From Apostichopus japonicus (Eukaryota; Echinodermata; Holothuroidea; Aspidochirotida; Stichopodidae): a stretch of DNA of 64,000 bases. A model generated the notes under the pieces. That model was not told where the DNA came from. It made no database searches and saw only the letters and a list, made by a program, of their open reading frames with translations. A program made the translations under genes and the position numbers. Shown here one piece after another: positions 13,401 to 60,913 of the stretch; position 1 is the stretch's first letter; each line of letters starts with the position of its first letter. The stretch is taken from NCBI RefSeq assembly GCF_037975245.1, contig NC_092568.1, forward strand, positions 682,001 to 746,000, given 5' to 3'.

Positions 13401-16183
13401 GGACTTAATCTAAGCATTTCATACATGCCACCTTGGGATATGTTTATTGAATTTTTTTTTCCTTCAAATCAAACTGTTTGATTAATGTGTGATTGGCTTG
13501 ATTTGTTATCAACTTTGGATACAATTTCAGGTTTTGAAGGAATCTCTGCGCCTGTATCCTCCTGTCTTCGGAACTGGTAGATATATTCACCGCAAGATAA
13601 GAATAGCTGGCTACGACATGCCAGTTGGTGCAAACGTTTTTGTAAGTGGAAGTCAAAAGTTCAGATGCGGGTTTACACTGGATAAGTTAAAGGTCATCAG
13701 TTATAGCCAATAAATATGCCAGACAAGTCAAATAATGGTCACGCATGTGCGGACTTTGACACTAATCCTTTTCCTCTGTATGAGAGATTGCATTTCCCAG
13801 CTTAATCCTGCTTCTGTTAAATGTCTGGGAAAAACTTTGTGGACCAGAAACCACTTTCTAGAGAACAATGCTTTTGTAATAATGTTAGCACGCTAAATTT
13901 TAAGGACTTTACTGGTGACCTTTGACCCCAGGCAGTCATTAGAAATTTTGCTCCTTGAAATAGTAAAATAAACTCTTCCTTGACCTTGTTGAAAGTGAAA
14001 GTTGTCTGCATACCGCATTTCTGTGGTTAAGATTTCTCAATGTTAGTTTGACATTGTACATCTCATCCATTTATGTGTAGGCCTATCATATAAGTCGTCA
14101 GTAAGATATTCCATCCACATAATGAAGTTAGTAGCCTATCCTAAAATTAAGTTAAATATAGTAACATGGTGAAGTATATATATACCATTGAGAAGGCTTA
14201 GGAAAGCCAATCAAACAGATCACTTCAGTAGCAAATCAGCCAGTTATATACCAGACTATTTACGACGCCATTTCTGTAACAGGTACCAGAGTCCAATAGG
14301 TGACAGCATCATTAAGGAAACGTGTACTTTTCGATCAGATCCCCTATAGGTTTCTCAACATTAAGTGTGAGGTTTTGTGAAAGGTTTCAGTTATTCACTG
14401 TTACAAAAGTGTATAAAGCAAAAATACATGTGAGTGGGGTGTAATGTGCGTTTTGGGGTTGAAACAAATATTGGACCTCTGTGTTTATTGTCAATATTTG
14501 CATGTGCAATGTACATGTTAACATGGCTTAGGTTAAGAAGAGAAATTATTTGACACCGCGTTTGAGTTTGTACTAATGCATGTTTGTAACTTTCACCTAG
14601 CTATCGATTTTCTGAATATTCATGATATGAATATTAATTTTGTTTTCAAAATGACAGAAGCAAACCTCAGCTGAAAATTTGTTGTTACTTAAATGCACAA
14701 AAAATGTTAAACATTAATGTAGGACCAGCTTTGTTGCAAATGAATACATGTTGGCAAAACATCTTTTCACGTTCGAGCATCTAGTATGCACTATAAATCT
14801 ATGTGACTTTTTTTCTTCATATCATCTATTCTCAGTTTTGTAATTATGCAATGAACAGATCAGAGGATTATTTCAAAAACCCATTGACCTTTGACCCAGA
14901 ACGTTTCAGGAGAGAAGAAGACAAGTGAGTAACAGTTACATTCTTTTCTTTGTCCGTTTAATCTTCATACGAACAATACAAATGAGAGAAGTGTGATTTG
15001 CAGTCCATTTACACCGTAACATGAGTAATGCACGAATGTTAAGTTATTGAAAGTGTCTTAATCGTGCCTCAGATGTGATATTCTTTGTATGTAGGGTAAC
15101 ATTAATCTAATCATGTGGGCACCACTGATTTTTTTTAGCCAACAGTTCGCTACTGTGAATGCTGCTATTTGTAGCTATTATTACAATCATCTTAATAGCA
15201 TTACAATCATCTTCATAGCATTACAAGCCCTTGCCTTGTATGCTTTGTGTTGCTGTTTACATAGCCAATTTGAAGCTGTTATTACAATATAGGCCTGTTA
15301 TGTATACTGCTATTACATGCTATTTAATTTATTCATAGACCTCTCTATGTGTACATGCCATTTTCCATGGGACCGCGATCTTGTATTGGACAGCAGTTTG
15401 CCTTGGTGAGTACCTATTATCACTATTTTCTCTAGTCGATCTTAAAATAAAATTAATTTTCCAATCTGAAAATCAAAATACCTAAGTTCAAGTTAATGTC
15501 AAAGTTGCATATTAAATAATAGTTCTTCCATTGATGCCATATCCTTTTGGGTTTATAATCCCCTCCACCCCCCCCCCCCTCCCATCTCATTTCAGCTATG
15601 TGATAATATCTTCATCTTTATTAGTAAATTGACTTTTCATTGATATTATTATGTTAAAGATATTTTGTGTTACTGGAGTTGTATCTTTTTTGCATTTCTT
15701 GTAGGTCGTCTGTACTGCCTCAGAATTTGCTAGAAAATCAATTAATGGTCACTCATGCCCCACGTTCAGCAAGCATTAACAACCACCCTCAAAACTTTTT
15801 TTTTTATCTCACTGAAAACATTTCATTGTCTAAGTTAATACTCCCCTAGTGCCTGCAGTAACTGGTAGTAAGATGCGGAACCACCACCAGTAAAGTACTT
15901 GTGGAAACTTCTAGTAATTGTTATCAAGCTCATATTTGGTGGTGATACTGATGATTTTGAAAAACACATTTTCTCATTGTGTCGTTGCTTCTTTCCATAG
16001 CTGCATATTTTCAACTTCCTCTGACTTTCTTTCCTGCAGATTGAAGCCAGGGTAGTGATTGCTAAATTACTTCAGAAATTGAGTTTTAGTCTGGTACCTG
16101 GACAGAAACTTGGAGTGAAAGAACGGCTGACTCTAAAACCAGCCGGTGATTGCCTTAATTACGTTACTCATAGGCTTGTGTGA
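4423..16183 (+). CDS. CYP46A1-like: Cytochrome P450, CYP46A1-like (cholesterol 24-hydroxylase type), 13 exons, complete
   Basis: Coding exons: 4423-4547, 5880-5957, 8265-8346, 9003-9163, 9328-9466, 10053-10163, 10966-11191, 11490-11562, 11925-12009, 13531-13641, 14836-14924, 15339-15405, 16040-16183. All junctions are GT-AG and phases agree, giving 496 residues (human CYP46A1 has 500). Residues 1-27 form a hydrophobic ER-membrane anchor, followed by the HIPGPKL proline hinge. The I-helix oxygen-binding motif GAGQETT is at 306-312, the K-helix ExxR is ESLR at 364-367, FDPERF follows, and the haem loop PFSMGPRSCIGQQFA places the axial Cys at 442. The C-terminal stretch LVPGQ...LKP matches CYP46A1 over other families. 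Known family role: microsomal haem monooxygenase that hydroxylates the cholesterol side chain; the substrate here is inferred. The start is the only Met before the anchor. The exon 5 donor (GTTTCA) is weak but conserved sequence resumes correctly in exon 6. No key residue is missing. Confidence 0.93.
6319..7305. mobile_element. MITE-like element with internal inverted repeat and 86-base tandem array (P450 intron 2)
   Basis: CATAGGCGTAGGAG at 6319-6332 is exactly mirrored by CTCCTACGCCTATG at 7292-7305, and both ends continue into G-rich/C-rich GGGGGGCTG. Near the left end, 6386-6442 is an imperfect inverted repeat of 6583-6646, including GCGCGC-rich stems. From about 6735 to 7250 there are six tandem copies of an 85-87-base unit starting GGTGCCCGAAAAATTATCAG. 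No transposase frame is seen. Confidence 0.65.
8133..8170 (+). ncRNA. Degenerate hammerhead-ribozyme-like motif, possible Penelope-like element remnant
   Basis: GATGA (8135-8139), then a perfect 5-bp stem ATCCT/AGGAT with loop GCA, then CGAAAC and GTC. This is the GAUGA-stem II-GAAA layout of the hammerhead core found in Penelope-like retroelements. The first two core bases (C, U before GAUGA) are A, A here and stem III is not convincing, so it is probably inactive or only a look-alike. Confidence 0.3.
12189..12559. mobile_element. hAT-type MITE with exact 8-bp target duplication (P450 intron 9)
   Basis: The element begins CAGGGGTGGGCAACCT and ends with its exact complement (16-base terminal inverted repeats). 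It is flanked by GTCTAAGG at 12181-12188 and 12560-12567. An 8-bp target duplication and CAG...CTG ends are typical of hAT elements. It is 371 bases long with no coding capacity. Confidence 0.9.
12575..12830. repeat. Dispersed repeat, copy A
   Basis: Shares a series of blocks with 17900-18240 in the same order: a CATGGATA block, GCTAT(GG/AG)(C/T)AACCACC, ACAGGAA(G/A)TAAACCAAG, GAATGATCATGTGA, TTGACCATTT and GGGTCCTTT. It lies in P450 intron 9 next to the hAT MITE. Confidence 0.6.
13642..14835. other. CYP46A1-like: P450 intron 10
   Basis: AT-rich intron of 1.2 kb with no recognised gene, RNA or mobile element. Confidence 0.5.
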
Positions 16184-19012: not shown

Positions 19013-22000
19013 TTAAGCTTTCATTCCATCCTCCTCCTCCTCCTCATCAGACCAGTAGTAATCTTTCTCTTGGTCCGAGTCGTCCTCTTCAGTTATTTCC
19101 TTAACTTCAAAGGCCTGCTGTAACTCTTTGTCACTAAATCGACTCTGAAATTTGTTCTGTTTGGTACCAAATTTTGTTAGGGGCTGCGGATAACAAGCAA
19201 ATGATCACAAATCACAAATTCTGTGTTTTAATTTGAAATTTTTAACAATTTCTTTCTGAGTTATAACAGCAAAACCAGTATTCTGCAAGCTTTTAGGCCT
19301 ACCAACCAGAATCTTTCGTGAGAAGAGCCATGACCCACCAGAAACGCACACCTCAGAATAGAATGTTCAGAATGAATGAAGAGCTAGCTTGGACTACGGA
19401 ATTAATATTAAAAAATATCTTAATAGATCTCCACCAGCAAGCTCAGTCAACAGTAAATAATTACTATGACGTCTAAAAAATCCTACGCAAATTTTTGTGA
19501 CCAACTTTTGGGTTTTCCACCCCCCCTCCATCCCAGGAATGAATTTGTCAAGTTTTGAGAGACACTTTTCTTTGCAATGTGAATGAATGTTTCATAGCAA
19601 GAGAACGTTCCTGGTGGGCCGGACAGGATCATGGAAACAAGCTGAAATAAATGGAATGTTTCTCTCAAAGTAGAAATTCCGAAACAAATATAGTGGGAAG
19701 CTGTTTTTGTTGTCAATATCCCTCCTGTGAACGTCCATCTCAAATCTCTCACCAAAAATAAAATACGATAATAAGCTACTCCCCTTACCCTTCCTGCCAC
19801 TGGTGTTGTCTTTTGTCTGGTTCTGCCCTTTCTTTTCTGCATACGGTATATATAATGTTCTGCTTTATCCCTGTGGAACAAAACATGAAATATATGGTTA
19901 CATATTTGCCAATAAAATTAAAGTAAACAAAATAATTATGGAGTGATGGACAAATAGCTAATGAACAACAAAATGCAAATATATGTACATATATTCACAT
20001 TCACCTGCCAAGACAAAACCAATATAGAATTAAAGTCATAAACTAAGTTTTATCATTGAGGGATAAGTGCAGGACTGTGTGTGTGTCCGGGGGAGGGGGG
20101 GTGGGGTGGGGGTGGGGGGTTGTATTTGGTATTCAGGCAATCTGATAGACTTTTTAGGGTATGACAATTGACTAACCTGTTGACACTCTGAAGGAGGCCT
20201 GGTGTCCAATTAGGGTGTGGTGTTTTCTTTGTTGAGAATGGTTCAATGTTGGGCATATTGAGTGAGGGGGTCTTACTGCAGGGAATACTGTCATCTGACT
20301 CTTCGTCGCTGCCGTCACACAGCGGAATCTGATTGAAAGAGATTAGATCAAGAGATTAGTAGAAAACAACTCACTATTCAAATACAATTCAATATAAGTG
20401 GTTTGTGTATATACATATACAAACACATGTCAGAGATCTCTCTCTCTCTCTGTTATGTATATATCAGGACCGGGCAAAAGTTATTATATGAATGAACAAA
20501 ATAGATTGAACTTTATGTTAACCAAACAGGAGATAAAGGGATTTACAACTGTTTAAGCAATATTCACCTTTTGCCCCACATTATTTTTTATTAAAATATT
20601 CCACCTTTTGATAATACTGTAAAAAATTGCATGTGTGCAGCAGTTATTAGCACAACACCATGTAGAAAAATGAGGAAAAATTCACCTAGATCTGTAACCA
20701 TGACAACCGTGCAACTCGAATGAAATTAAACTTTCGGGCATATGACCAGAAAACTCTGCTGTACAAGACATGACTTCATCAACTACATCTTCAAAATAAT
20801 AGTTTTGACATCTTTCTTACAAACTCAAAATTATTTTAAAAACCATATTCTGATGACAAGAAATGTGAATCTTAAACTGAAGAAAAGATATTTTCACACT
20901 GCTGGTCGAAAAACCCCGACTCAATTTCTTGCCCCTAACTCGAGATAAGGTTGATTGAATTTAACCTATTTTGAATGGCTAAAGCTTTGACTACTCTAGT
21001 AAATCTGATCATAGTATGGGATTGTGATGTCATCTGGGCAAATGCTCTTCCAACGCTTTTCTAAGTCTATAGTAACCTCCTCGTTGATTTATTCCTCAAA
21101 CCTGATACATTTGAAAAAATTTCGGTTAGCTGTCACATTTGTCTATATTTTTTTTCCATAAAAAATGTATCTTTTTGAAAATATTCTTTTTTGTCTGTGG
21201 ATGATTTACAAATTATAAAAATAAATATTCAGCTTAAGTGTCCTTATGACATCCATTCAGTTGTTGCCAAATGTATTTACAAAATAAAAGCTGAAAAATT
21301 CTTATCTTTGCAATTCAACATGCTATGAGGATGTGCTTTTTACCCAAAGGTTCAGAAAATTTTCCAGCATGTTTGCTAGGCAATAACTTCAGCTAGCGGA
21401 AAACCCTTTTACAGGACTAGAGTTATACACACTGTGCTGGCAATTGAACAAATTAAAGAAATCGTTTTACAAACAATAAGCTATTGTTTTAAACATAACT
21501 GAGGATACCTTGTGTCTCCTCGTTTTCTTGTAAGGAGTATTATCTAGCAGATCTTCCTCGTAGCCCATATTGTGATGCTCTGCCAATTCCCTGAGTTGTC
21601 TTTTGCGACGTAGAGTTCCCTTCCTGGCATTAAGGGTGACAGGACCTGCCAGAGAAACGCAAAATGAAATATTTAAAGTTAACATACAAAATGACAATAA
21701 TCAAGGGAATTTTACAACAAAAAATTTGTTTGAAAAAAAAAATTGTTTGAAAATATTCAATATTTGTTTACTGTTCCAATAATTAATAGATATTTCATAT
21801 TTAAAGACTTGAATGCTAACCAAGCTGACAGCTTTGGGACATTTAAAATGGAATGGCAATAAACTGGGAAGAGAGCCATGATTACCTCATAATGAAATCA
21901 CTTTACTATAAAAAGTAATTGTTGACATCTCACAGATCAAAAAACTAAAAACATTGACTGCATGTCCTGTTCTATGTATTACGTGGGTGTTTGGAGACAA

Positions 22001-25000
22001 ACACCTTTGAAATATCTTAATAGCTTAGAGTGCTCCTTAAAGGCAAATTTGATGAAGCCTTTTTCAGCTTTATAGTTCTTAATATACACAGTGAAATGGA
22101 ATGAGAAGGACTGTCCTCATCTTGAGGAAAGGTTAATATAAACGCAGGCATGTGCCCACGCTAGGCGGCACTGGGCGGCCCCACCCAGCACTAAAAATTA
22201 CCGCCCAGCACTGTCTCAAAAATTGTGAATCCTGTCCAGCACTATTTTCATCTAAAATCCCGACATTCCTAACAATATATTCAACATAAATTGGGCCTAC
22301 CCTATGCCAATATCATACAGACTTATAATGCATCAGTTACGCATGCAAGAAACATTACTTACTGCTCGCAATCGTTCCCTTGTAAAATCTCTTTGAAACA
22401 AACTAATAACTTTCACCAGGTACGTAATATATTTCACAAAAAAAATTTAAAAATGTAAATTGTTAGCAAAACTAGTAATTATGACATGTGCTTAAAAAAG
22501 CTACACAAGTGCCAGCATTTGGCATCTGAGCACCTTCCCCAGGATGGCGATCAGTAAACCCGGCACTCAGGAAATCCTGGGCACATCCCTGTACACGGTA
22601 AATGGAGAAGGACTGTCCGCATGCATCTTGAGTAGAGGTTAATATACACTATGAATGGAGAAGGACTGTCCGCATGCATCTTGAGTAGAGGTTAATATAC
22701 ACTATGAATGGAGAAGGACTGTCCGCATGCATCTTGAGTAGAGGTTAATATACACTATGAATGGAGAAGGACTGTCCGCATGCATCTTGAGTAGAGGTTA
22801 ATATACACTATGAATGGAGAAGGACTGTCCGCATGCATCTTGAGTAGAGGTTAATATACACTATGAATGGAGAAGGACTGTCCGCATGCATCTTGAGTAG
22901 AGGTTAATATACACTATGAATGGAGAAGGACTGTCCGCATGCATCTTGAGTAGAGGTTAATATACACTATGAATGGAGAAGGACTGTCCGCATGCATCTT
23001 GAGTAGAGGTTAATATACACGGTAAATGGAGAAGGACTGTCCACATGCATCTTGAGTAGAGGTTAATATACACTATAATGGAGAAGGACTGTCATACGAG
23101 GTAAATACATTTGGAGAATTTAGTGAATCAGTGCACTGCAGATGAATATTTCAATATACCTCTGCTTGTCTCATTGGTAGATTTCTTCGTGTTTCCAGAC
23201 ACCTTGTCGGCCTTCAATAATGAAGATTTTTTGGCCTTGCATTCTTTAATTTGTCTGGTACCGACTTTATCTGACACCCTCTGCCAATAGTCATTTGAGG
23301 TTCCAGGAATACATCGTAGCGCACTGTAAGAGAAGATATTAGAAATCACAGAAACTTGTTGTGAAGCATTTGTATCATGTATATATTTGGTTTCCCATTT
23401 ACAGAATTTTTTACCAAAACCCAGAGTTGAAAAACACCTTGCTGAATTTCCTGCAAAGATGGGCCATTTCTGGAATTGTTCACGAACCAGAGACATGAAC
23501 ATCTGTGATACATATTGGCACCTTACAATGATAAAAACGAAAAACCTGTTGAACACTCTTTTCTTTAAAACACTGCTTTTTAACATTCCCCCCCCCCCCT
23601 CCCCCATCCAACACACACACATTTATGATTTTTTCAAATTCCCAACCCTGACCAAACCGACCAAGTTTCACTTTAAATAAGAGTGCAATTGTTCGGTTTT
23701 TGTCTCATGAATATTAACTACAAAGTACCTCATGATTCCATTTGATTTATGAAGATTTCATCTCGCAGACGCTTTTGCAAATTAAATACTTAGATCAAAC
23801 AGATAACTTTCCAAAAATTATGGACTCTTTATTATTCTGAAAATAAACTTGACTAATTTACTGCAGTATGATGGGATTTTAGTATTAGAAAATATTCATT
23901 TCCCAAAAGAAAAATTGAGAAAACATCTCAAAAGGCACTGTCTGATAACGTTGATAATAACGTCGGCTCCTCAGTGGAGGCCTAAATGTTTAATCCATCA
24001 TTTTTTAACTTCTCAGAAATCCATCAAAGCATGTTCCCTGAACTTCACATAAACAAGAGAGCACCCTTGGATGACAATTAACACAATTTGTCCTTAAAAT
24101 AAAGTTGTAATACAAAATAAATACTTTATCTGAGGAAATAAAAATCTTATATATTTTCATACAGTTTTGTGTCACGTTGAGGAAACAGACATAATAATGG
24201 TGTGTGTGTTAGTTTTTCTTCCACCAGCCACAATTAATGAGCCTCAGATATTGTTGTATCCAATAACGTCTTATAATTTTGCTATTTTTCATTTGAAATA
24301 TGATATCCCAAAGGTCGTATCTCAACATTAATGCAATTGGTGTCAAAATGCAACCTAGACTGATGGCAATTCATTCTAACAGTCAACAACATATCAACAA
24401 TTCAGTGCCTAAATTCACCATTCAATGTAACATTACGTCAGTTCGGTACGTACATCAAGTATTTGAGAGTATACTCTCAAATGTCTTGATAACTTGATGT
24501 CTTACCTTTCCAATCTCTCAACTTCATCTTCTTTCCATTCATCACTGCCCCTTTCGTTCTCTTTGTCAGATGCCCTCTCGTTATTCCTTTGGGCAGTCCT
24601 CGTCCTAGCACTTGCTGGTCGTGTTACCTCTTTGCCAGTGTCCTTGTTTATCTCATTTCCATCATTTTCCCCTTCGGTTCGAAGCGAAGCTATTTTATTG
24701 TCACCATGTTCGCTTCCTGTCTGATCCTGACTACTACGAACCCCACGAGTTGTCTGAAATGATCCTGTTAAAGTGCAGTCATTACGGAAACTCTTTTTGC
24801 CTCTTGTGAAATTCCTTCTCCCAACAGAGCTTCTATCACGGGTGTTGCTTCGTGAGGCCGATTCATCGGGCATCTCTGGAGATGCTTCATTCCGGGTGGT
24901 TTCCGTTCCAAGTTTACTTTTGTTTACTCCAGAGTCAAATACATCAGGGTCGCTGCCCGGTGAACTACTGGAGCTCCGTCTCTGAAATTTCATCTCTTCC

Positions 25001-28000
25001 CGTCTCTGTTTCTGTTTGGCGAGTATTCCCAAGATATCGCCATAGAGATTAAAGTTAAGAGATTCCTTCCTCTTCTCGGTGGGAATAGACCTGGTCTGAC
25101 TTCTCGCTTGCTTCATACTTTCCGTATCAGATGTCTGTTCCAGAACCTTGACTACTTTATTATCGCATTCACCGATAACGTCTCCCTGTTTCTTGGTCTG
25201 ACTTTGCCCCCTACCACTGCAATGGTTTTGGGTACTGAGGTCCTCTTCAATACCCCTGTTCCTGGTTATGGTCCTTCTGGTACTTTTTCTGGTCCAATAT
25301 TGCCCCAATTCTGATTCGCTTTCCGATGACACACTCTCAGTTTCTTCGGTTCTTCTCTTTGTCTTCACCCCAACAGTCGACTCGTTGACTTTGATCCTGT
25401 TCGAAGCTCTGGTCTTTGAAGATTCTGTTCTCTCTGGAACAAACCCAGATGTCTTCTCCCTCTTGTTTTTCTTTGTAGGTGGTTCATCTCTTCTGATGCC
25501 TCTCTTTCCTGCTCGGTCATTAGAGACGCTCTCTTTCCGTGTTGCTTTCGTTCTTCTACTCTTCTTTGTCGTTTTCCTTGCCTCTGTTGTTCTACGTTCG
25601 TCGACACTTCTTTGCTCTTTTGCCGAGCCCCTTGCAGAATGTCTCTGTTTCACTCGTGAGGTTACAGAGCTACCTTCTAGAACAGTCTATAAAAGAATTA
25701 AAGGTACATGAGTACTATACTATTTACTTAAGATAGGGAGCAAAAAACTAGGCTAAAAACCTAAATGAAAATTCTGTTTCAAGTCCTGACAAAACTTTAT
25801 TCCTGGAATGTACTAAGGTCCCATGTGATACATAATTGAAAGTGACATGACTGAATGTTTCATCTCAAGAATTTCTTTTATTGGATTGAGAATGTAATAA
25901 GCAAAATGCATGTGCACAAGATCATCTTCTTGTCATATGTAAGCAAACAAATTCTGTTTAACTGGTGTTTAAAACTTTTGAGCATTAATAGCTGTCATTC
26001 TATTCTCAGGTTGTGTTCTGTTATAACCAGGATTGGTCTGCTATGTTAACAAAGATCTACTACAGTAAACTGTCGAACATGATGTAGCCTACATTGTACA
26101 TACTACATAGTGCAGCCTAACATATCTACTGGATAGACAACAACTAGCCTTTACAGAGAACATTTCATAGGGGTGGGTGTGTTGTCAAATTGACTTATCA
26201 ATAAATAAAGGAAACCATTTTGTAAATGATCGTTACCTCTATATGTGTGTCAGTGGTAGTGGCTGATGTTTTTATCCACATTTCAATTCACTTTAGTAAA
26301 GTCATGAAGTCAAACTTTTTTCTACTTTAATTCTTTCTGTTATACCCTTTCTCTGTTTTGTGTGCAGTATAACAATGCCATCATTTTGTGTTTGTATATT
26401 GTGCAAATTTAATTTACCAGCCTCTAACACCACTACGATGACATTGAGCAAAATAAATTAAAACTGAAGTATTGTGAAAGTTAGCAAATAGAATATATAG
26501 GGCGAATAGATCTCAAGTGTGGTGGAGTTTTTATCACAACCATATTTCCCACAAAAAAATGATAAATTATTGAATAATGCTCAAAGCAGTGAGAGGCAGT
26601 GACTCATCATCTGTAGGATGCACAGATGGGCCACAAATTGTCTGTGTGAACAAAAGAAAAATGGATCCTTACGGTGTCAGCTTTCAAACCGACCAGCTTT
26701 GGAGTATTGAACGAAGTGTGAGTGTGGTCTGTTGTTCCAGCGATCAATTCCACTTCGTCCAGACGTACGTTGGTGCGTTGCCGTTCCCCGGTCCAGTAGG
26801 CCAGAGGTGGTAGGACACGTCTGCCGCTCCTGGTACACTTTAGCTCGTCTACAGATATCACATTTGGTGTCTTGAACTCTGCTGCTGGGAAGTATTAAAA
26901 AGCAATCAATTAAATGCAGTCATATATTTTCCATAATGCATTATCAAACAAGAGCATCAATGACGCAGTATCTCAATACTGGAAGTTCTAATTTTGATTC
27001 CTAGTTTCATATCTTTGCTCTGTCTCTACAATTATCAATATCAATATATATAATATTTTTGGTCATATAGTTTGACGTCAATGACAACAGTCTAATAAGA
27101 AGAGGCCAACAACTCAACCATATTCTTGATGCCCGCCTTGAGAAAGCTAGGCCTATCAACCTACTGTATGTTACTGTAGACTGTAGTGGTGACTACCATC
27201 AAAACTGTGTACACTTCCAAGTATCAAAACAACCCACGTTTTTCCATTTCAATAATTTTGACTTGAAGATTTCGTGGATTTATGACTTGGAAAAAATAAG
27301 GTACAAGTAGATTACCAGTTTTTAATTGAAAGTGATGGGTGGCCACCTCCTCCCCTATAGCCACCCCAGTTCCTATCCATTTTAGTATTTTCTTTTAATT
27401 CTTTGTATATTTGATGTCAAACATCACAAGTTCAAAAGAAAGCTAAACATACATCCTATAAGTTATAACCTTATAGTTATACATCTTATATCCTTATAAA
27501 TAAAACATAACCTTATCCAATTTTTATAGTCTTATAAAAGTTGTGATGCTATGGCCGGCTCCTCTTTTATACATACTCCAGTGAAAATAAAATGTGATAG
27601 ATTATAATTTTTGTTTTTAATTCCTCTTTTTTTTGGGGGGGAAGGGGGGGTTAAAGACATATACCAAACAAGCTGTTAATTCAAAATGATGCTTCATTCT
27701 AGAAATGCACAATATACACTCTATTTCAAATGAATATTTGTTGTATTATCCCATTAACATTATGTTAAATTTATGGAGTCACAGTTAATATATAAGTTGG
27801 AAACTTAACTTAAAATTAAAACACACTGTAAGGCAATCGAACAAACTTACTGTACCCTGGCCCAAAACTGCCTGAACACCACCAGTACAATGCTAATGTG
27901 GCTATTACTAAATGAAGGCCTAATATAGGATGCACTAGGCTTAGCCTTCAGCAGCACAACAATGTGCATACCTAATTATTAAAAAATACCTGATGGGCAA

Positions 28001-31000
28001 TCAAACAAACTTATCATGACTCTTGCTCTGAAAAACCACCTGAACACCAGTACAATCCTTAAATTGATATTACTAAAACCATGGAGCTATAAACAGACGA
28101 AGTCCTAATATAAATTAAATGCAGTACAACAATGTGTATATGGAATTAGTGTGCAATACACTACCAGTACCAGCAGCGTATCTCACAACAGTACAGAAAA
28201 TTGGTCGCGAGGGTGGCCATTTTCGTATATCTAACATGTAGCTGCCATGAGTCATAGCCAATCTGCTACAAACCAGACTTAGAGGCGGGGCTTGAGTCAT
28301 AGCCAATCTGCTACAAACCAGACTTGGAGGCGGGGCTTAATCATCAAAAACAAGGAAACAAATAAGTTTTGGAGCGTGCGCAAAAAAGGCTTGTTTCAAC
28401 TGTTTTTCAGAGTGATTTGGCCAAATTTGGACATAAATTGGTGAAAAAGCCATAGAATGAGATACAATTCTGGAATAAAAAATAGTAACTTTTGTTGGCC
28501 TTTATGATATATGCTTGCTCTGGAAATTCCAGAGAAAAAGAACTTTGAATGAAGACGCTGAAAAATTTTTAAGAGAAGAGAGAGTCCCACTTACTGTTAC
28601 AATATCTCTATACATGTACTGTATTGAGATAAAAATAAAATTTTCCCACAAAACTGGACATATCTTACTGACTGAATAAACTTAATAACTTTTTCCTCCA
28701 TATACAATGTTTCACTTACCATGACTTCTTAAATTAAGTACAATTTAAAGCTTTCAAAGACACATTATTTGTCTGCATTTATTTCAATACGTCCCAATTT
28801 CCTTCAAGTGGGTATTAATTCATATTGCACAACATGTGATTTGAGAAAGACAACAACAACAGAAATTTTAGAAATGAGGAAAATATTTGGCTCAATGAAA
28901 AACGAAACAGCTAAAAAGAGAATGCCAAATTCTAGGGCAGTTTACTAATAAAAGAATGTTGTAGAAAATAAACTCACCAGGTGTAGTCAAAGTGTCTTTT
29001 GGAAAAGCCTTGGTTGTATCTGGAGTCAGTAATTTGGACCTGTTACTTCCTCCCTTGGAAATAACACTCTTTGGAAGTTGTTGTTTTCCACCAGTGATAG
29101 GAGTGGATTTCACTTCTTTTTTCGGTTTGGAAGACTTCTCTTCTTGTCTTGCGACTCTCTTTTTTGCCTCGGGTTTTGTTTCACTCGGGACTGGCTTCTC
29201 AGATTTGATCCTATTATCCCTAATGAAAGAAACAGACAACTGAAAATTTTCAAAGCAATTCCAAAGTTTTTCTCAAAATACTTTGTATCATAAGGCATAA
29301 ATACTATCACAATGTGCCTTTCATTTCAAATGACATGCTTTGCCTTTTTTCTTTTCTTTTTTTGGCAGGGGGGGGGCAAGGGAATGGGGTTAAGGATCAG
29401 TAAAGGCACTACCATGCCTGACTATTGTACACTTCCACCTGCTCAGTGTTCGATTTTTCCGGTATCGCATCGCAAAATGCGATCCAAAACGACAACTTGC
29501 GAGACGTTTCCAAATCAGCATCGCACATTGTGCCGATTTGTGCGATACAAATTCCTAGTCAGATTTGGGAGCAAACACTCAAACCTTAACTTATGAACTG
29601 TCGATCACAATGTAGAAGTTATAATTTATTGAGTTTATACTCAATGTACAACTTATTCACTTGACCATATAGCGAAAAAAAAACCTGAAAAAATAATATC
29701 CTACCATAGTTAAGTGTAAAGCAAATAGCATAACCACCTCGGCAGTTACGGATCTCACGTAACTAAAAGGTTCCCTGGCAACGTGCCCAAAAAATGTTAA
29801 CAAACAGGTGTTACACAGGGGATGAGCTCACAGTTGTTGGGAAGGTACTGTACCTGGGCAAATTCGCAGCACATGTACCGTGGTACAGTAGTTGGGTATA
29901 GGGTTAAACACTGCAGTTGTAAAAATGTACGCATAGTGCACGCTATTCATTGTTAGGCAGTCTAGAAACGGGGCTTTGCTGAACGTTGTTTGTTTCATAA
30001 TATCGGAAGTTTTGTAAGTTGCACTTTTTAAAGATTGAAAGACAGATTAAATCTCTTTTCATTTTATAACATAAAATAGCTACTTTAACTTGTCATTTTA
30101 AAATTTTCATCAGTTTCGTGACAATTTAAATAAAAAAAGTTGTCAGTATTTTGCATCCTCAACTGCGAATTTTTTCATCGCCAGACATCGCAAAAAATGA
30201 CAATTTTCGGGGGCTTTCGCCCCCAGGATCCCCACGAGGGGTTCTACCCCATGACCCCACCATAGCCCTAAGACGGGCCCCTGGACACCACGCCTTTATG
30301 CTAGGCAGGCGAACACCGACGGGAAATCGGCAGTGTGTTCGCGGGAAATTGAACAAGGTTTTCCAACACTGCTGAACTGTGCAGTTACTGCATGCATCAT
30401 GTTCAAGGTTTTCACGGAGGCCTTTGAGGAAATGAATGGTTAGTACAGTGTATATATGCTGCACTAATGCTGTGTGTAGGCCAAGGTTCACGAAGGTCAT
30501 TGGTTATATTCGCGCGCCGTAGACGTGTTTTTAGATGTTACGGAGAGTCAGGTTTCCATGGATATTAATCGAAAATGAATCTGAGTTTAACTGACGCTAA
30601 AGAAAAGGATCCTCTTGGGCAGATTAACAAATCATTGCAAGTATAAATAAGTACAGGTAGCTCTGCTGTTAAAAAGAAAAGTTCAATATCGGTTTGCTGT
30701 TATTGGCAATTAGGCAAAATTTTACCGATACCGATATGCTGCCGATATTGCAAATATCGGCCGATACCGATATTGAAAACGATTATCGTAGCAACACTAG
30801 TATAAATAATAATAATGAACAAACATTTTCTAGTTAATACATTGATCGCCAACATTTGGTCCGTTTTGTGGTAATTTCAAAACTGCTATTCAATATTGGG
30901 GAACTGCTATGCAACAAAAATATTGTATAGCAATTGTCGAAATTTGTTGCTATGCAATTTTTTGGCCATAAGTCGAACCCTGCACCTGCTATGTAAATTG

Positions 31001-34000
31001 GAGGAAATAATGTAGTATTCACATTTTGTGTTGCAAAAAATACTGAAAATTGTATACTGAATAACTGGTATACATTTGCATTGTGTGAAGGAATTTTTGA
31101 AGAAAAGTTTACAAAGCATTTTGCAATGTTGGTCATGAAGTGACATCCCTAGGCTTGTTGCAACCCATACATTTTTAGGGCATTATCCAACCAATATATA
31201 CTCCCTGGTGATTGTCGATCAAACTGCAGATTGACTGATCTGATTGCAATCGATTGCCACACATGCATACACACTCGCATACACATCCTCCTGGTACACA
31301 CATATACTTTCTACTCTCAAACACACACGAACATGAATGCAAATCATGCTTGCTGCTATTGGCAAGAAACCAACAGTGAAAGACGAGGACATCACTGGAG
31401 AAATTACTACAATATCGATGATGTTAGAAACAGCAGAAAGACGCAAAATGAGAGTTGAAATAACTTACTCTTCTTTCCTTAAACACTGTTCCTGAATTAT
31501 CTCTTTCCAGTCTACTGGAAATCCGTTTAGGAACCTTTTCACTGTATCAGGGGAGAAACCTGGAAAAAAAAGATGAATAAAGAAAAGTGTATCATTTCAT
31601 GAAAGTGACAGAAAGCTCATGACAAATTTGGCATTTTTCTTCAAAAGAATTTGGAAATTCCAAGTTCAAAAGAATGACAAAAAGCAGCTGTCACCCACAT
31701 GCTTAGTGTGAGTCTGAAATATATATTCCAAACATTAAATAACAAAGAAGTTTAAATTTCTTTAAAACCTCCTTATATTCGGTTCTCTGTGTGAATTACA
31801 GCAAATTTCAAGTACAAAATGCTCTAGCCTATCCATTCATGAAATGTCTTACTGCCCTTTTGCGACATCTTTCTTTTGAACCTCTCTATCAGCCATTGTT
31901 GTTCTTTACTGGACTATTTGGACACTTTTGTCGATGACTGGTTTTAAATATTATCCGATGTGATATAATGGAAGTAAGAACTAAGTGATTTTACTTAAGC
32001 TTGCACAGTTTCGTGAAAACTTACAACCGGTTTTTCTCTAGCAAAAAACCGAATCTGGCTCAAAAACCGGTTTTTTCCCCCTCCTGAATTGCATTGAAAA
32101 CATCCAAATCTCGATCGCTAAGATGCGTATTTTTGAAGCTTTATCAACAGCGGGTTCAAGTCTGTTCGTTCGCAGTAAATTGTTAAAAACATGAATAATA
32201 AATTCAAGAAATGTTACCGCCTTCATGACTCTCATTTTATAACCCACGTTAACTAAACTGAAGTAAATATATCGAAAAGAAATGTGTTAGTAAAATTTGT
32301 TCTTTAAGTTCTAACATCACGTACACGTATCGTTTGTCTTGTGTTTACTGTACTTCACGAAGTTCAAATTCGTGTTCAGAAAAAAATATCACGGTCATGT
32401 TATATTATATGTTTAATTTTTTTTTATGTTATATTTTCGGAGATGAGGGCCAAGCGTAAACCCCATTATGACCAATTGGAGATCTTAAAAAAAAAATGCT
32501 TTACAATATGATTGGTCCAATGAAGGTACCAAATTGCACGAGGCTCTAGCCATGTTCGCGGGTGGTATCTTGGCGGTAAAATAAATTTCTCTTCAAGGAG
32601 TGAAGAGAATTTACCGTCTACACTTTCAAGTACAAGTTGAAAAATATCGCTGGCAAAAGCGGGATTAGGTCGGCAAAGATTGTAAATTGTTAACCTTTAA
32701 GTTGGAAACATGTGTTCATCAACGTAAACGAAAAACCAACTGAGAGACGCCTTGTCTGATAACTGGTAAGAAGAAAGGTTTAAAGGAAAATTACAAAGAA
32801 AATAAAATCCATTAGCGTACAAAGGAGAATTGTCACAACAGCAACAACTGTAATTTTCAGCCATGTATGCAACATTTTTACTCCTTTAATATTCCTTGAC
32901 TCAAGCCTGAAGCCAGGTGTCTCTTGTGAATAATGGACTGTGATTGTTCTAATGTTACTTGTTGCATCTTAGTTGTTAAACTCAACCCCCCCCCCCCGCG
33001 ATTGTTCTAAAGTTACTTGTTGCATCTTAGTTGTTAAACTCAGAGCCCCCCCGTGATTGTTCTAATGTTACTTGTTACATCTTAGTTGTTAAACTCACAG
33101 AGCCCCCCCTGCGACTGTACATGTCGTATTGTATTGTGGATTGCGCAATGAACCTTTCAAGTTTAACGTTCATTTTTTGAACACGAACTGTGATCAATGT
33201 GTTTGAAAAGATTTTCTCCATATCCTCTACTATTAAATTGAAGTTAAATAGTAAGAACAACACAAAGAGGACAAACACTTTGGATGTAACAATTTATTTG
33301 GAACTGCATCTCGTCATTTGAGTGTGTACTTCTCACAACTACTAACGTTGGCCACCAAGGTCAGTTCAATACTACAAGGTACCTAACTGATGCACGCATA
33401 TATGGGCTGCATAGCCTAATGTTAGGCCTAGCTATCCACCCTCAAGCACTGGTTATGGCGTGTGCGGATCGTAGCTGACAATGTCGTCTATCAGAAAAGC
33501 TTTCTCTTTTTGCAATTTACTTTCATATTGCAAAAGAACAGTAAAAAGGAGAAACCAGAGTCAACAAACTTTTTTTTTTTCAGTATTTGCAATTCACATT
33601 TCGGTTTTTCCGGTTTTTTCGGTTTTCTTAAAATAAAAAATAGTACCGAAATTCGGTCGGAAAAAAACCGGTTTCGGTACTAAAACCGGTTTACCGTGCA
33701 AGCCTAATTTTACTACATATAATCTGCTGGTACCCTCAAACATCAATTACTCATTTCTTCTTGTTTAATACTGTAAAAAAACATAACACTTGCTTCACAT
33801 CATTATGTAAAACAGAAAAAACACAGAAATAGTAGACAATAGACAAAAAACTAAAAGCTGTGCACCAAGGGTATTAATATTCACCGTTTTCTAAAGTCAT
33901 TGCAATATTCATAGATCCACGAAGTCGGTACTTGGAGCCAGATGACGTCACCAACAGTCTTGGCTTTATTCTCTCCGATATGGCTGAAGAATGCCATAGT

Positions 34001-36958
34001 TCACCCTCAGGATCGCCTCTGCAAAGTGAAGTGTTTACGATGATTTTTCTTAATAGATTCACATTACATATTTTGGAAAGTTTCCGGTATAAAAGTGCAG
34101 AGGAAAGCAAAATCTCAAACAATCATGTGGCGAGAGGTAGGAAAGGGGAATGGTGTCCAAATAAACTGTAGCTTTTGTGCCACCAAAGTAAACTGTACAC
34201 TGATTTTGGAGAATTGCAAAATCGAACTAGCTTGAACTGTAACAGGTCTAAACAAAAACCATGGCTTTAGCTTATACAGGTATTATCCTGTTTCTTTAGA
34301 AAAGTGGTTTGATTCCTGCCAATGAAATAACCTACCCAAGGCTCAACTTCAACAATAATTTTTAGCTTAAACAGTTATTAATAATGACTTTGCTACTTAC
34401 ATTCTGTGTCCTTCGATGACAATGATTCTTTTGCGAGGCTGTGTGAGATACCAACCTTCCATTATACTTTCCGCAATAAGATCATCCTGGGGATGAAAGA
34501 AGAAGATTAAATGAAAAGCTGAATTGATTTGACAGATGCAGGCAGCAGTATCCATGCCAACTACTAACTTTGCTATACAACTGCAAAGATGTACAACAGT
34601 TTGGTATACAGGGACTATAGCAGAACTGTAACATCAGGTTGAAAGGAAGGAAGGAGGATGGAGGTCTAGAAAATGCAGGGGGCGGGGGGGGGGGGGGGGA
34701 GAGCCTTACCCAAACCTAAGTGGTCTCATAAGATTTGGCTGAAATCTCCTCACCACCATTTAGGGAGCAAGTTAAAAAGAAAATAACAACGCAGTCTTTA
34801 CCTTGTTTCTTAGGAATATGTGAAAACATTTTAATCATAATAGGAATGACAAGAAAACAATGTTGGGACCTCTCTGAAAATTAATGTTTCCCACTGATAC
34901 GCACCATGTCATTAGTCTGTGGGGTATCTGTGGGATTTGTTTTGTAAGGCCAATCGATAACAGCTTGCTCAAGTGTTCTTCTCTCTTCCTCTTCATCGAT
35001 TATTTGCTTTCCGACCGAGCTCTCCAAATCTTTGCTGGTCTGTGAAGTGATGGCCGTCGTGGTTTGTTTTTGAACCAACGATCTTTTCGACGGAGATGTT
35101 AGCGGCGAGGATGAAGGGGGATTTTCTTCATTCAAGGCTTGAAGAAACAATTGCAAAAAAGAAATCAATTGTTAAAATAATCTGCTTTACAAGTATGATG
35201 ATTGTGACCATCAGCTTGAAGGTACACCCAGGGAATAATTTAGTCTTCAAATGTTGTGTATCAGGTTTTGAAGTGTCTATAGATTGTCTCTTACAGTGTA
35301 CTATGGATCCTATGTAGAAAAATGCTATGTATCTTTGGACTGCTATAGCAACTTGACCAATTTGCATAGCATCGTGCGATGGGATACTAGATAAATGATT
35401 TCCTGACGCTAAGTTACAATGCCTTAGAAGCCACATAAGTATGCTCAGGAAAACAATACACTGTTTAACTATTGTCAAATTAAAGATGAACATCAATATA
35501 TTGGTAGCAATTTTGAAGCTTCTTAACTTACATTATGGTTCTATTATACAATAAAAAAAAAAACTGCTATACATCTTTGCAAAAGTTTGTATAAAGATAT
35601 GTACGTTTTTTGCAAAGCATTTTGCAAATTAATAGAGGATAGCTCGGATTAACTATTTCTTGGGGTGATAATTGAATTCCAAGCTACACAATACTCACTG
35701 AAGGAGCCTTGCAGAGCGTCATTTCCCCTGGATGGCTGAGTTCGTCTCTTTTGCTTTAAAATCTGACTTAAAGGAGACAGGAAAGGCCTCTGATTTGGGT
35801 CACATGATTCATTGGAAAACGAACCAAAAGTCGACACATGACTGCGAACAGGTAAATTGAAGAACTTCTGTGGAAGATTAATTTAAAGGAGGCATGTTTA
35901 AGTAAGCATTAGAAGACAGAATTATTCAATTGGTTGAAATTTCTTCTAATCATTTGACAGACAGGTTGCTTACTAGCAGCAGGTGCTACATCAAACTTGA
36001 TATTATGAATTATTAGTTTGATCTTAGTCTAGATGTGGCCAAGCAACAATTTTGATCTTTGTTGCAATAAACTGAAGTGAAGCTACCATAGGGAATACCT
36101 TGAAAAAACAAGAAACTGCCATCCATAAACTAAGTAGGAGTTACTGTACAGCTCGACTCAATTGAAAGAGTTCCAATTTGTATTTGGAGCGGAATTATAC
36201 TTGCGTAAGCTTACCTTGGCTCCTGGTGAGCGATACAAAATATTATCAAATCTGCTGGTGGTGCAGGTGCTATCAATGCTGTAAAATAGATGATCAGAAG
36301 TATTTATTCCATAAATTCATAACATTTTTAGGCCTGTTAGTGTAACCTGTAAAATCATATTCAATCCATGCTTAGTCAACTTACTTAGAATTGTTATTTG
36401 GATCAAATCAAATAAAAAAAGGACCCATATGATTTAACACTAGCATAGTTTCCCCAACTGTCACTAAGTTAACTGAGGATAAAGTGAAACTGGTTAAATC
36501 TTGATCAGCAAAACACACTGCTTTGGTATTTTTGTTTGCATCTGTTCAGAAAAATATGCCTAGCCTACGCTATGAAATCACATTTTTAAATTTCCCACAA
36601 GAACACAAAATGTACAATCGTAATGGTACGTAACTACAACTGGCGTATAGCTTTCCGGTAGGCTAGGCCTAACATAAAGCCTAATCTAACGTTAATCCTA
36701 GGCTAGTAAGTTCATCGTTATGTCAGTGCAAACTAAGTAAGGGCAAGTTTTAGCAATCGCCATCGCAATTGAACTTAGTTACGGATCGACATGGTGAAAT
36801 GTTAGATATCTAGTCTAGCTCATGATTTTGTTAAGTACCAAAACGATAATCAAAATTTTTGTGCAGGTCCAACCACACTTTCCACAAATGATTACATGTA
36901 TCAGACTTTCTAATTATTGTTAGATTACGTACCTCCCTTTCCCAAACAAGTCCGCCAT
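19013..36958 (-). CDS. MIS18BP1: MIS18-binding protein 1 / KNL2 (centromere licensing factor), 15 exons, complete
   Basis: Exons in transcript order: 36933-36958, 36215-36278, 35699-35867, 34905-35137, 34401-34486, 33885-34018, 31469-31559, 28978-29219, 26673-26881, 24506-25686, 23160-23323, 21509-21645, 20177-20328, 19789-19870, 19013-19183. All phases agree; 1046 residues (human about 1130). A SANTA domain lies at about 145-260, with LWHSSAISERIK, GSKYRLRG and GFSPDTVKRFLNGFP as its signature. A CENP-C-like motif is at 363-382. A long basic Ser/Arg/Glu-rich exon covers 419-812. A SANT/Myb domain is at about 800-845 (DEWKEDEVERLE, then DYWQRVSDKVGTR). After it come the family-typical GTLRRKRQ and DKAEHYIYRMQK segments and an acidic tail. 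Known role: recruits Mis18 alpha/beta and HJURP so that new CENP-A is loaded at centromeres after mitosis; nuclear. The exon 9 acceptor is a tandem CAGCAG, so one Ala may be added or skipped. Confidence 0.94.
22091..23094. repeat. 53-base minisatellite in MIS18BP1 intron, interrupted by a transposon
   Basis: About nine near-identical tandem copies (22592-23094, last one partial) of a 53-base unit containing GAGAAGGACTGTCCGCATGC and TTGAGTAGAGGTTAATATAC. A diverged copy sits alone at 22091-22144, cut off from the array by the insertion at 22145-22591. The array lies between MIS18BP1 exons 12 and 11, close to the exon 11 donor at 23159. Confidence 0.9.
22145..22591. mobile_element. hAT-like short element inserted in the minisatellite
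   Basis: The left end CAGGCATGTGCCCACG and the complement of the right end CAGGGATGTGCCCAGG form terminal inverted repeats. Length 447 bases, no ORF. The flanking array sequence (TAAACG left, TACACG right) looks like an imperfect target duplication, too short or too eroded to measure as 8 bp. Confidence 0.6.
24453..24499. repeat. Palindrome directly after the MIS18BP1 exon 10 donor
   Basis: ATTTGAGAGTATACTCTCAAAT (24461-24482) is a perfect 22-base palindrome, and CATCAAGT (24453-24460) pairs with ACTTGATG (24492-24499). In the transcript this hairpin begins about 6 bases inside the intron, after GTAAG. Confidence 0.65.
26766..26840 (-). other. MIS18BP1: CENP-C-like motif in MIS18BP1
   Basis: Residues 363-382, inside exon 9, contain TRSGRRVLPPLAYWTGER. 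This fits the CENP-C motif pattern R-S/T-x-R-x4-P-x2-Y-W-x-G-E-R, where the Arg contacts the H2A/H2B acidic patch and the aromatic Y/W pair contacts the hydrophobic CENP-A C-terminal tail (established for CENP-C). R366, R369, P374, Y377, W378 and G380-E381-R382 are all present, so it should be able to bind a CENP-A nucleosome. It is separate from both SANTA and SANT. Confidence 0.85.
27828..28148. repeat. Diverged tandem duplication, unit about 155 bases
   Basis: 27828-27985 and 27986-28148 share, in order, GGCAATC(G/A)AACAAACTTA, CCTGAACACCA, CCAGTACAAT, ATTACTAAA, CCTAATATA and ACAACAATGTG. Intronic in MIS18BP1. Confidence 0.6.
28249..28338. repeat. 45-base tandem duplication carrying CCAAT-, GC- and AP-1-like boxes
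   Basis: Two copies (28249-28293, 28294-28338) differ at one base. Each contains AGCCAATC (CCAAT box), GGCGGGGC (GC box) and TGAGTCA (AP-1-like; the first copy's is completed by the T before 28249). It lies in the 2-kb MIS18BP1 intron between exons 9 and 8. Confidence 0.75.
29444..30982. mobile_element. 1.5-kb hAT-type element with exact 8-bp target duplication (MIS18BP1 intron 7)
   Basis: The left end CAGTGTTCGA and the complement of the right end CAGGGTTCGA form short terminal repeats. CACCTGCT flanks both sides (29436-29443 and 30983-30990). The interior has a GGGGGC-TTTC-GCCCCC hairpin (30209-30224) and a patch of repeated, mirrored CCGATATTGC/ATATCGG words at about 30680-30790. No transposase reading frame survives. 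Confidence 0.8.
31996..33706. mobile_element. 1.7-kb hAT-type element with AACCGG-rich ends and exact 8-bp target duplication
   Basis: The left end TAAGCTTGCACAGT and the complement of the right end TAGGCTTGCACGGT match; both ends continue into clustered AACCGGTTTT words. Flanking ATTTTACT is identical at 31988-31995 and 33707-33714. The interior has no convincing transposase frame but has a three-copy tandem repeat at about 32938-33110. It sits in MIS18BP1 intron 6, inside the SANTA domain. Confidence 0.8.
32938..33110. repeat. Three-copy tandem repeat inside the 31996-33706 element
   Basis: Three copies of a roughly 60-base unit, GATTGTTCTAATGTTACTTG followed by TTGCATCTTAGTTGTTAAAC and a run of C of varying length (7 to 13). 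Confidence 0.8.
34684..34699. repeat. 16-base G run
   Basis: Uninterrupted G homopolymer in MIS18BP1 intron 4, one of the longest of many G or C runs in the window. Confidence 0.9.
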
Positions 36959-38400: not shown

Positions 38401-39024
38401 TGTTGATTTATACGCAGAAAGATTTGCATTAAGATTAACTTGATCTGAGGCAAAAAAAAGTTATTGCAAGGTAATGCATGTTGGTGCAGTAAGTAATCCT
38501 TTATTCTATGCAGTATATAGTAAAGTGACGCTTCATGATATTTTTTTCTTCTTCTGGAAAGGGATACCGGTGTTCCTGTTGACTATACGATACTACCTTC
38601 TAGGCAGTGCAGTGGGGCTACCAAGTAAGCCAATAGAGTTCATGGGGTGCAACTTGGATGTAAATAAATAATTAACTTTGGTAACATGCATGTGAAAATC
38701 ACTGCAGTTGCAGTTTATTTGCATGGTATACGAATTAGTTATTAATACAATTTCAGCATTTGGATCGGACTTCCTTTAATTTCTCCTCATAATCATGTTT
38801 AATAATATCTGACAATGTAAACAAAATATGCTGAATTCATCTTTGAACTGCTCGAATTTAAACTTCAGGCCCTTCATTTTTTCCTTTCTGTTTCATGATC
38901 CGTGTGTCACTTTTTGCAATCGACGTTCGTCTTTCATAGTTCAAATGAACATCGAAATATAAATACATTTCTTGTACATGTCGATGTCTATAACTGCTAG
39001 TTTCAAACCAGTCGTTTGTACGAC

Positions 39025-42000
39025 ATGAAATCTAAAATGGCAGGACCGCCTGACAAAAATCGATCCAAAGAAAAGTTGTCTTCCGAAAAAAGTGACAAGA
39101 AGTATGCAACACTAACGACACGTTCTATTGCTTTAATGGCCGAATCCGCAGGTTACCCATCTATTTCGGGTGAAATCTGTACAATTCTAGCTCAAGACAT
39201 TTGCTATCGACTTCGCGAAACTGCTCAGGTAAAATGTTTGTGTACGATTTCAGGCCAAGATTGCTGCTTGGTGGGTCCAATTACTTCAGACTTTGAACTG
39301 TTATTTGTTTACTCATTGATGAATACGTTTTCTCATATTTCTATATATGAAACTTTTGCAATGTTTTATACAAGTGCGCATCAAAATTTTACGTATTTTG
39401 ACATAGCCTATCGCACGCTTGGCTAACTTTGAAGAAACTAGACTATGACTATGAAGTATCCTACTACTTAGTACTGACACTGTATGAGCATTTTCTGTAA
39501 CACAGTAGTATCTTCACGAACAAGTAATAGCACTGTACCGGTACCTGTTATAACGCAGTCCATTCCTACATCAAAAGAGTGCTATGTGTCCCTCATTCAC
39601 TTTGATGACCTTAAATAAGTAGTTAAAGTACTAGTCATTGGTTTCAATGCATATATAGCAAGTGCAGTACAAAATTTTTAGAAGAATAAATTTGGAATAT
39701 TTCTTTATTCCTTACTCTGTACACATACAAATAAACGTAAGTCCTCTAGGCCTAGAGGCTAGGCTGATATCAGTCAATTAATGCAAAAGAATTGACTAAA
39801 TGAGGGATGATTTGGACATTGCTTTGCAAATTTACATCATCATTTCGCTTTTGTGCAGAACACATAGAGGGACTTGCTACCACACTTAAAAGTTTTGCAT
39901 ACTTCTGTTAAGTACAGTATGGAAATTGCTTCATAGTTGATATTGCATAACAAAAAGTTCATCAACTACAATTGCAGCATAGTCTAAATAACATAACCCT
40001 AAGCAGATAACCAGAACTTAAAAACCTGTACCAAATTTCATATCATATATATTGCTATTAATAAGATCTAGGACAGCTAGCAAATCCCAACTGTGCAATG
40101 TTTAGAGATACTCATGTTATGGTACAAATTGACTCTAAGTTACCATGCCTGTGTATATTGCCTGAAACTTTAGCATTAGGGGTTTCCTTTGTTGGAAATC
40201 TTCTAGCCCATATTAGTTCATTGCACCCTTTGCTGAGCATATTCATCAGCGTATACATTAACAAGGACGGACTACATCAATGGGGAGATGCGCAAAAAAA
40301 TGTACCGACAATGGAGGGTCATGTGAAGTTCATCCTCCCCTGTTAAACTAGACTCTTTTGGTACTCCATGAATGTATATTTTACAACAACTAATGTCATG
40401 ATCTTATTGCTACAACATTCCTTAAAAGGCTATGAGAACAGTGTAATTTAGCTAAGTGGTACATTTTGTCATTGTTCCCCACAATTGACCACAATTTTCA
40501 ATTCCAAAATTACCATTTTGAGTATTTTCTTTAAAAAAATTGAACTGCAACTGGAACACATGCATCTTATCAGGACTGTACACAAAATATGCTCACTAGA
40601 AGCAAATGGCAGGATTTGTTGCTCCTTAGCAACACAAGGCTCCTTGCCATTTTTTGCACGTAAACAAGCATGTATGACCGACTTAAGGAATCTATAAGAC
40701 TCTGACAGGAGATGTTCAAATTATAGCCTACTGTAGGTCCATACAGATCAAGCTTGTTATGATATGGAAAGTAAATCTAAACAATGTTATCATCCAAACA
40801 TAAGTAATTATTCTCAAATTTACCATAAATGCCCGTAGCAGTGGCGTGCTGTTGTCTACTGAATGCTTATCTCTGACAACTGACAAAGATTAATAATACG
40901 TAAGTAGCAACTGGGAACACGTCACATGACCCTCCATGATTGGTACGTTTCCGTACTGTGGAGTGATTCCTCCAGATCATCTTAAATTCTATGAGCATTT
41001 ATTTAAACAATTGATGTACAGTAAAAAGGTATATAGCAGGCTACTTCCATTTGATAAATTTGTTAAATTATAGTAAAACTTGAGGCCAAAAATATGACTT
41101 AATAGTTGGTGCTCTTTTGTTTCATGCAATAGCAAATGGGAAAATTAGAATTTCTTTTGGTAGGTTTTCTCTGCATGATTACAGCCTTGTTCAAGGAAAC
41201 ATGGCTTTGTTCACAGTGATATGCTACTTCATTAATGAGTTTTTGTCGCAAGATTTATCTTGATTTGAAGTTAAATCTGAATGGTCTAATCATTTAATAC
41301 TACTTCATTTTTCTAACAGGCCAGCACACAGTTTATGAAACATGCAAAGAGAAAGAAATTATTGGTTGAAGACTTCAACAAAGCCTTAAAATGGAGCGAT
41401 GTTGAGGTGTGTGTGTATTTATTTAAATCAACGTTGATGTTTCTTATTATCAGTGACCTAAAGCTAGCGATCCTCCAAAATATTATATATATTTCTGAAG
41501 ATTTCCACCTTTTTTTTCTTTAAGATTTTTGTGAACATTTGACTTCTCTTCTACGAACAGATCTTATGCTGATCGAAGTTTGATCTCATCAATTAGTGCA
41601 ATATTGTCCCGAAATGTTGTCATTTACATGATTATTAATAGCTAATTGGATAAATTATTTGTAGTTTCAACAGTAATGTGTAAAATACTTATTCATTTTT
41701 GTTTTCTGATAACCCTCCTTTAAAGCCAATCCATGGTTATGGATCTCATAAGAACATACAGTTTAAGACTTTGAAAGAGGGGAATCTTTACTTTGTGGAA
41801 GAGAAAGAGGTTGACCTGACATCTACTTCATTGGACCTTCAGGTTCCAGCTACTGCTGGAAAATGCTCAGTGAAAGGTCAGTTATGAAAATATGATGTAG
41901 AATGAAACCGTTCAAGTGTAATGTCGCCATCTTTGTTTAAGCACCCTCTAATGGTTGACTTAAAAAATATCCTCTACAAACTGTCATCCAAAACCGAACA

Positions 42001-50478: not shown

Positions 50479-60913
<10,435 letters not shown>

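Follow-up and report, generated by a model that had tools for sequence, protein, structure and literature searches.

A MIS18BP1/KNL2 gene of Apostichopus japonicus with a CENP-C-like motif and its predicted reading of CENP-A nucleosomes

The stretch of Apostichopus japonicus DNA analysed here (64,000 nucleotides, hereafter called the window) raises the question of whether its MIS18BP1/KNL2-like gene carries a genuine CENP-C-like motif, and whether the encoded protein could be expected to bind CENP-A nucleosomes directly. A first-pass annotation, made from the letters of the DNA, had placed such a motif in exon 9 of the gene, together with SANTA and SANT/Myb domains, and had taken this combination as a sign that the ancestral deuterostome protein bound CENP-A nucleosomes directly.

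Gene model and domains of the encoded protein

On the minus strand, from window position 36958 to 19013, a 15-exon gene with a single open frame of 1046 amino acids was found. The exon model was assembled by hand from GT-AG joins with the frame held open, and the translation was re-derived from the coordinates; all 14 introns start with GT and end with AG. The exons are as follows.

Exon 1, 36933..36958, minus strand: 26 nt with the proposed start codon, the least certain piece of the model
Exon 2, 36215..36278, minus strand: hand-built model
Exon 3, 35699..35867, minus strand: hand-built model
Exon 4, 34905..35137, minus strand: hand-built model
Exon 5, 34401..34486, minus strand: SANTA (amino acids 175-258) begins
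Exon 6, 33885..34018, minus strand: SANTA
Exon 7, 31469..31559, minus strand: SANTA ends
Exon 8, 28978..29219, minus strand: basic linker
Exon 9, 26673..26881, minus strand: amino acids 349-418, carries the CENP-C-like motif
Exon 10, 24506..25686, minus strand: long charged linker, after which SANT/Myb (amino acids 801-842) begins
Exon 11, 23160..23323, minus strand: remainder of SANT/Myb
Exon 12, 21509..21645, minus strand: MIS18BP1 C-terminal region (KGTLRRKRQLRE)
Exon 13, 20177..20328, minus strand: MIS18BP1 C-terminal region (TPGLLQSVNR)
Exon 14, 19789..19870, minus strand: MIS18BP1 C-terminal region (YRMQK)
Exon 15, 19013..19183, minus strand: EKDYYWS tail and stop codon

Intron 11 of the model holds a tandem array (22601-23093) in which a 53-bp unit is repeated 9.3 times with 98 % matches.

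The SANTA domain (PF09133) of the modelled protein was identified with 64.3 bits (E = 1.4e-17) against a Pfam cut-off of 21. The Myb_DNA-binding match was under its Pfam cut-off of 24.4, with 16.6 bits in the whole protein and 24.0 bits in a 61-amino acid piece; a match of this piece to SrfA was also below cut-off and was set aside as chance. The same region aligns to MIS18BP1's own SANT domain, both in 1wgx (KIAA1903, E = 0.00073) and in 9f5w over the same residues, the letters of these two entries being identical across SANT in the printed alignment. On this alignment, the SANT/Myb domain by which an animal MIS18BP1/KNL2 is recognized was counted as present. The domain order in the model is SANTA, CENP-C motif and SANT. 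Seven single open frames, a set that did not include the SANTA exons 5-7, gave only a weak, below-cut-off Pfam match to Herpes_BLRF2, in the exon-4 frame.

A search of solved structures with the whole model returned six distinct sequences at E up to 1. The Mis18-binding protein 1 chain 9f5w matches amino acids 798-1038 (E = 7.1e-17), the blocks GTLRRKRQLRE, PGLLQSVNR, YRMQK and EKDYY being common to the model and this C-terminal match, and a second chain of that name, 9r6h, matches amino acids 176-275, over SANTA (E = 3.4e-8). Both chains, as well as 1wgx, are presumably human MIS18BP1, and between them SANTA, SANT and the C-terminal region align with the model. The motif was matched at E = 0.0089 by 7y7i_K, which we take to be chicken KNL2 (M18BP1) on the CENP-A nucleosome, and SANT by two DnaJ-family chains (E = 0.046 and 0.09). 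MIS18BP1/KNL2 proteins are also characterised by an N-terminal Mis18alpha/beta-binding region with CDK sites; the model has 18 SP/TP sites, including four within amino acids 1-102, a region without alignment in the structure search. Judged by its sequence, the gene is MIS18BP1/KNL2.

The CENP-C-like motif of exon 9

Exon 9 has 209 nt, is entered in phase 1 and left in phase 0, and is bounded by the acceptor ACTTCCCAGCAG and the donor GTAAGGAT. Only the motif-encoding frame is stop-free among its three. The motif lies within it as follows.

26781..26834, minus strand: CENP-C-like motif TRSGRRVLPPLAYWTGER, amino acids 365-382

The landmarks of the motif are the anchor arginine R369, P374, the aromatic pair Y377-W378 and a possible phospho-switch serine, S367, the roles of the residues being assigned by homology from PMC4830207 and PMC13021935. 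Kral's vertebrate motif identities, RxxRxxxxPLxYWxGERxxY, comprise ten positions (PMC4830207), and nine of these, counted by eye, are kept in TRSGRRVLPPLAYWTGER; the final tyrosine is replaced by threonine.

The exon 9 frame was aligned locally to five reference motifs, with best scores of 82, 54, 49, 51 and 45. None of 5000 shuffles per reference reached the observed score, the highest shuffles scoring 43, 37, 36, 35 and 35, respectively, and for each of the five references the motif frame ranked first among the 2158 six-frame ORFs of the window (at least 20 amino acids). Pfam gave no family at E up to 1 for the exon-9 frame alone; with the motif thus outside the Pfam models here, an HMM was made by hand from the cores of the five references, with the window sequence left out. 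This HMM is narrow, because the references are few and mutually related, three of them being CENP-C or its consensus. It scored the exon-9 ORF at 30.2 bits and the full model protein at 25.3 bits, whereas none of 7657 other sequences (2157 ORFs, 500 shuffles of the whole protein and 5000 of exon 9) exceeded 8.1 bits. A single instance of the short pattern RxxxxPxx[YF]W is present in the window, yet the pattern also appeared in 43 of 20000 whole-protein shuffles and is therefore weak alone, the strength resting in the whole core; the longer pattern RxxxxPxx[YFW]WxGxR appeared in none of the 20000. The CENP-C-like motif in exon 9 is real and far above chance.

The first-pass annotation is borne out on these points: its coordinates for the motif-bearing exon are exact, the R and Y-W residues that it had described as kept are present, the profile check that it had asked for separates the exon-9 ORF from shuffles and other ORFs, and SANTA, the CENP-C motif and SANT/Myb (the last by the 1wgx/9f5w alignment) lie in one gene. 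Neither of the outcomes that it had named as refuting, a shuffle-like HMM score or skipping of exon 9, is borne out at the level of sequence.

With exon 9 as query against solved structures, 7y7i_K, named in the structure listing as a Myb-like domain-containing protein of 44 residues, was the best match (E = 0.00024), with 13 of the 18 core residues identical by eye. Three antibody chains, taken as chance, ranked next (E 0.075 to 0.95), and CENP-C 4x23 was fifth (12.9 bits, E = 1.1). The 26-amino acid core as query gave three matches, all motif-bearing, namely 7y7i_K (E = 0.00012), 4x23 (16.5 bits, E = 0.057) and 7bxt (E = 0.28). Because 7y7i_K outscores the CENP-C chains with both queries, the motif is, by sequence comparison, closer to the KNL2 chain than to the CENP-C chains and nearest the KNL2 type. 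7y7i_K has the same core, TRSGRxVxPPLx[FY]WxGER, and the same distance between anchor arginine and aromatic pair, and the alignment extends past the core, but the pair is FW in the chicken chain and YW here, and beyond GER the two resemble each other only loosely. The chicken KNL2 fragment is given as residues 518-560 (PMC11879092). The CENP-C motif of CENP-C (4x23, 7bxt) has the same RxxxxPLxYWxGER core, but it belongs to another gene and its match is weaker than that of KNL2.

From amino acid 551 onward, exon 10 (24506-25686, minus strand) encodes an RKSTR stretch after YW (GQYWTRKSTRRTI). Proline and GER, both part of the CENP-C motif, are missing from it, and this basic stretch may have no relation to that motif.

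Predicted function and alternative readings

The gene is very likely an ordinary animal MIS18BP1/KNL2 ortholog that has kept the ancestral CENP-C-like motif and would read CENP-A nucleosomes directly. By homology, R369 would be the anchor in the acidic patch of H2A-H2B, and the aromatic pair Y377-W378 would pack against the C-terminal tail of CENP-A. MIS18BP1 would thereby directly read pre-existing CENP-A nucleosomes in interphase and deliver the CENP-A loading machinery to them; SANTA may contribute by way of CENP-C. The motif of frog and chicken M18BP1 is used for CENP-A nucleosome binding (PMC13021935, PMC11879092), with which the data in the available part of PMC12296988 agree, and in chicken KNL2 the contacts are with the H2A-H2B acidic patch and with two parts of CENP-A, its C-terminal tail and its L1 loop (PMC13021935). 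HJURP is the subject of the available part of PMC13001451, where the motif is not mentioned.

The architecture is that of Xenopus laevis M18BP1, a single protein that combines SANTA and SANT with the CENP-C motif (PMC9210943, PMC13021935) and that has, likened by description, a serine close to the anchor arginine (PMC13021935), but the nucleosome-binding piece modelled there comprises residues 758-789 (PMC13021935), whereas the motif is at 365-382 here. Plant alpha-KNL2 likewise has SANTA and a CENPC-k motif of the RSGRxxxxPLEFW type (PMC9210943, PMC11879092), but according to the available part of PMC11879092 a SANT domain is not detected in it and the motif is in its C-terminal part.

Alternatively, the motif could be conserved but minor, targeting going mainly through CENP-C via SANTA and the linkers, and the motif adding little or contacting the nucleosome otherwise. 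This reading, which we regard as unlikely, has precedents in human M18BP1, which localises by CENP-C binding without the motif (PMC11879092), and in Xenopus M18BP1-S, which localises in metaphase by CENP-C binding (PMC13021935), and the isolated plant motif is insufficient for centromere targeting (PMC11879092); yet according to the same paper Arabidopsis, chicken and frog need the motif for centromere targeting, and with nine of Kral's ten identities intact its decay is not apparent here. The C. elegans KNL-2 has no motif and binds CENP-A with another region, as described in the available part of PMC8259991, so the mechanism varies among animals. Given the human, plant, C. elegans and Xenopus data, the presence of the motif is no proof of the main targeting route in this protein.

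That the exon 9 frame is open by chance, or that the exon is absent from the mature mRNA, is highly improbable. Its acceptor consists of three CAGs in tandem, a run that offers several cut sites, but offsets of -3, 0 and +3 all hold the frame, and an offset of -6, which was also tried, is without a preceding AG. Skipping of exon 9 shifts the frame and brings a stop at the sixth codon, by which in-frame skipping was ruled out, and the motif frame ranks first by a wide margin in both the alignments and the HMM search. That the gene is CENP-C, the protein of which the motif is a signature and whose chain 4x23 matches weakly, can be dismissed as vanishingly improbable, since the modelled protein has SANTA and the MIS18BP1 C-terminal region, the KNL2 chain is the better motif match, and Pfam at E up to 1 on the 1046-amino acid model gave only SANTA and Myb and no C-terminal cupin domain.

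Phosphorylation of Xenopus S760, near the anchor arginine, prevents CENP-A nucleosome binding (PMC13021935). S367 lies two residues ahead of R369, with the same placement in the chicken and plant motifs, and it probably matches this mitotic phospho-site, according to the description in the paper together with the chicken and CENP-C sequences. Phosphorylation of S367 next to the anchor might, with less certainty than the steps above, weaken the nucleosome grip in mitosis, as for the Xenopus serine. A mitotic phospho-switch that predates vertebrates, making direct CENP-A reading and cell-cycle release an ancestral pair, is a tentative and somewhat doubtful extension of this. In the available part of PMC13021935, the S760A variant did not restore metaphase centromere binding in extract, no kinase was assigned to S760, and the site was a poor fit to the listed mitotic kinase consensus sites; the switch is therefore only a lead here.

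The motif has already been reported in KNL2 of frogs, birds, fish, plants and many invertebrates and is missing in mammals, the statement on many invertebrates being from PMC9210943, which cites Sandmann 2017. In the partly available literature on echinoderms, sea urchins, invertebrates and metazoans, an invertebrate deuterostome named as having the KNL2/M18BP1 motif was not found. Human and other mammalian M18BP1 are without the motif (PMC13021935, PMC4830207), in agreement with the loss in mammals stated in the first-pass annotation. The overall interpretation of that annotation is partly supported: it is right in direction, but its ancestral-deuterostome inference is not new, because it is contained in the broader published statement. 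The gene fits the published view of mammals as the lineage that lost the motif and does not by itself change the known picture; what it adds is one complete gene from a further animal in which direct reading of CENP-A nucleosomes by MIS18BP1 is to be expected. If the embryos handle easily, direct binding by MIS18BP1, like the proposed phospho-switch, would be open to testing outside the established models.

Neighbouring features in the window

The window gave neither an Rfam match at gathering score nor a tRNA. A probable TAF6L-like gene lies head to head with MIS18BP1, the proposed starts of the two being about 2 kb apart. Features outside the MIS18BP1 model are as follows.

39001-39423, plus strand: probable first coding exon of the TAF6L-like gene (Pfam TAF, E = 3.8e-7; TAF6L chain 7ktr_F, E = 3.5e-6)
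53369-53710, minus strand: weak THAP-domain match (20.6 bits, cut-off 23.9), possibly transposon-derived
13486-13710, plus strand: cytochrome P450 exon (Pfam p450, E = 9.4e-7) of a gene that perhaps spans 8910-13710
8910 and 10951, plus strand: ORFs that seem to be further P450 exons, though neither matched a Pfam family at E up to 0.01
6745-7253: tandem array of an 87-bp unit in 5.9 copies, with long open frames over both strands
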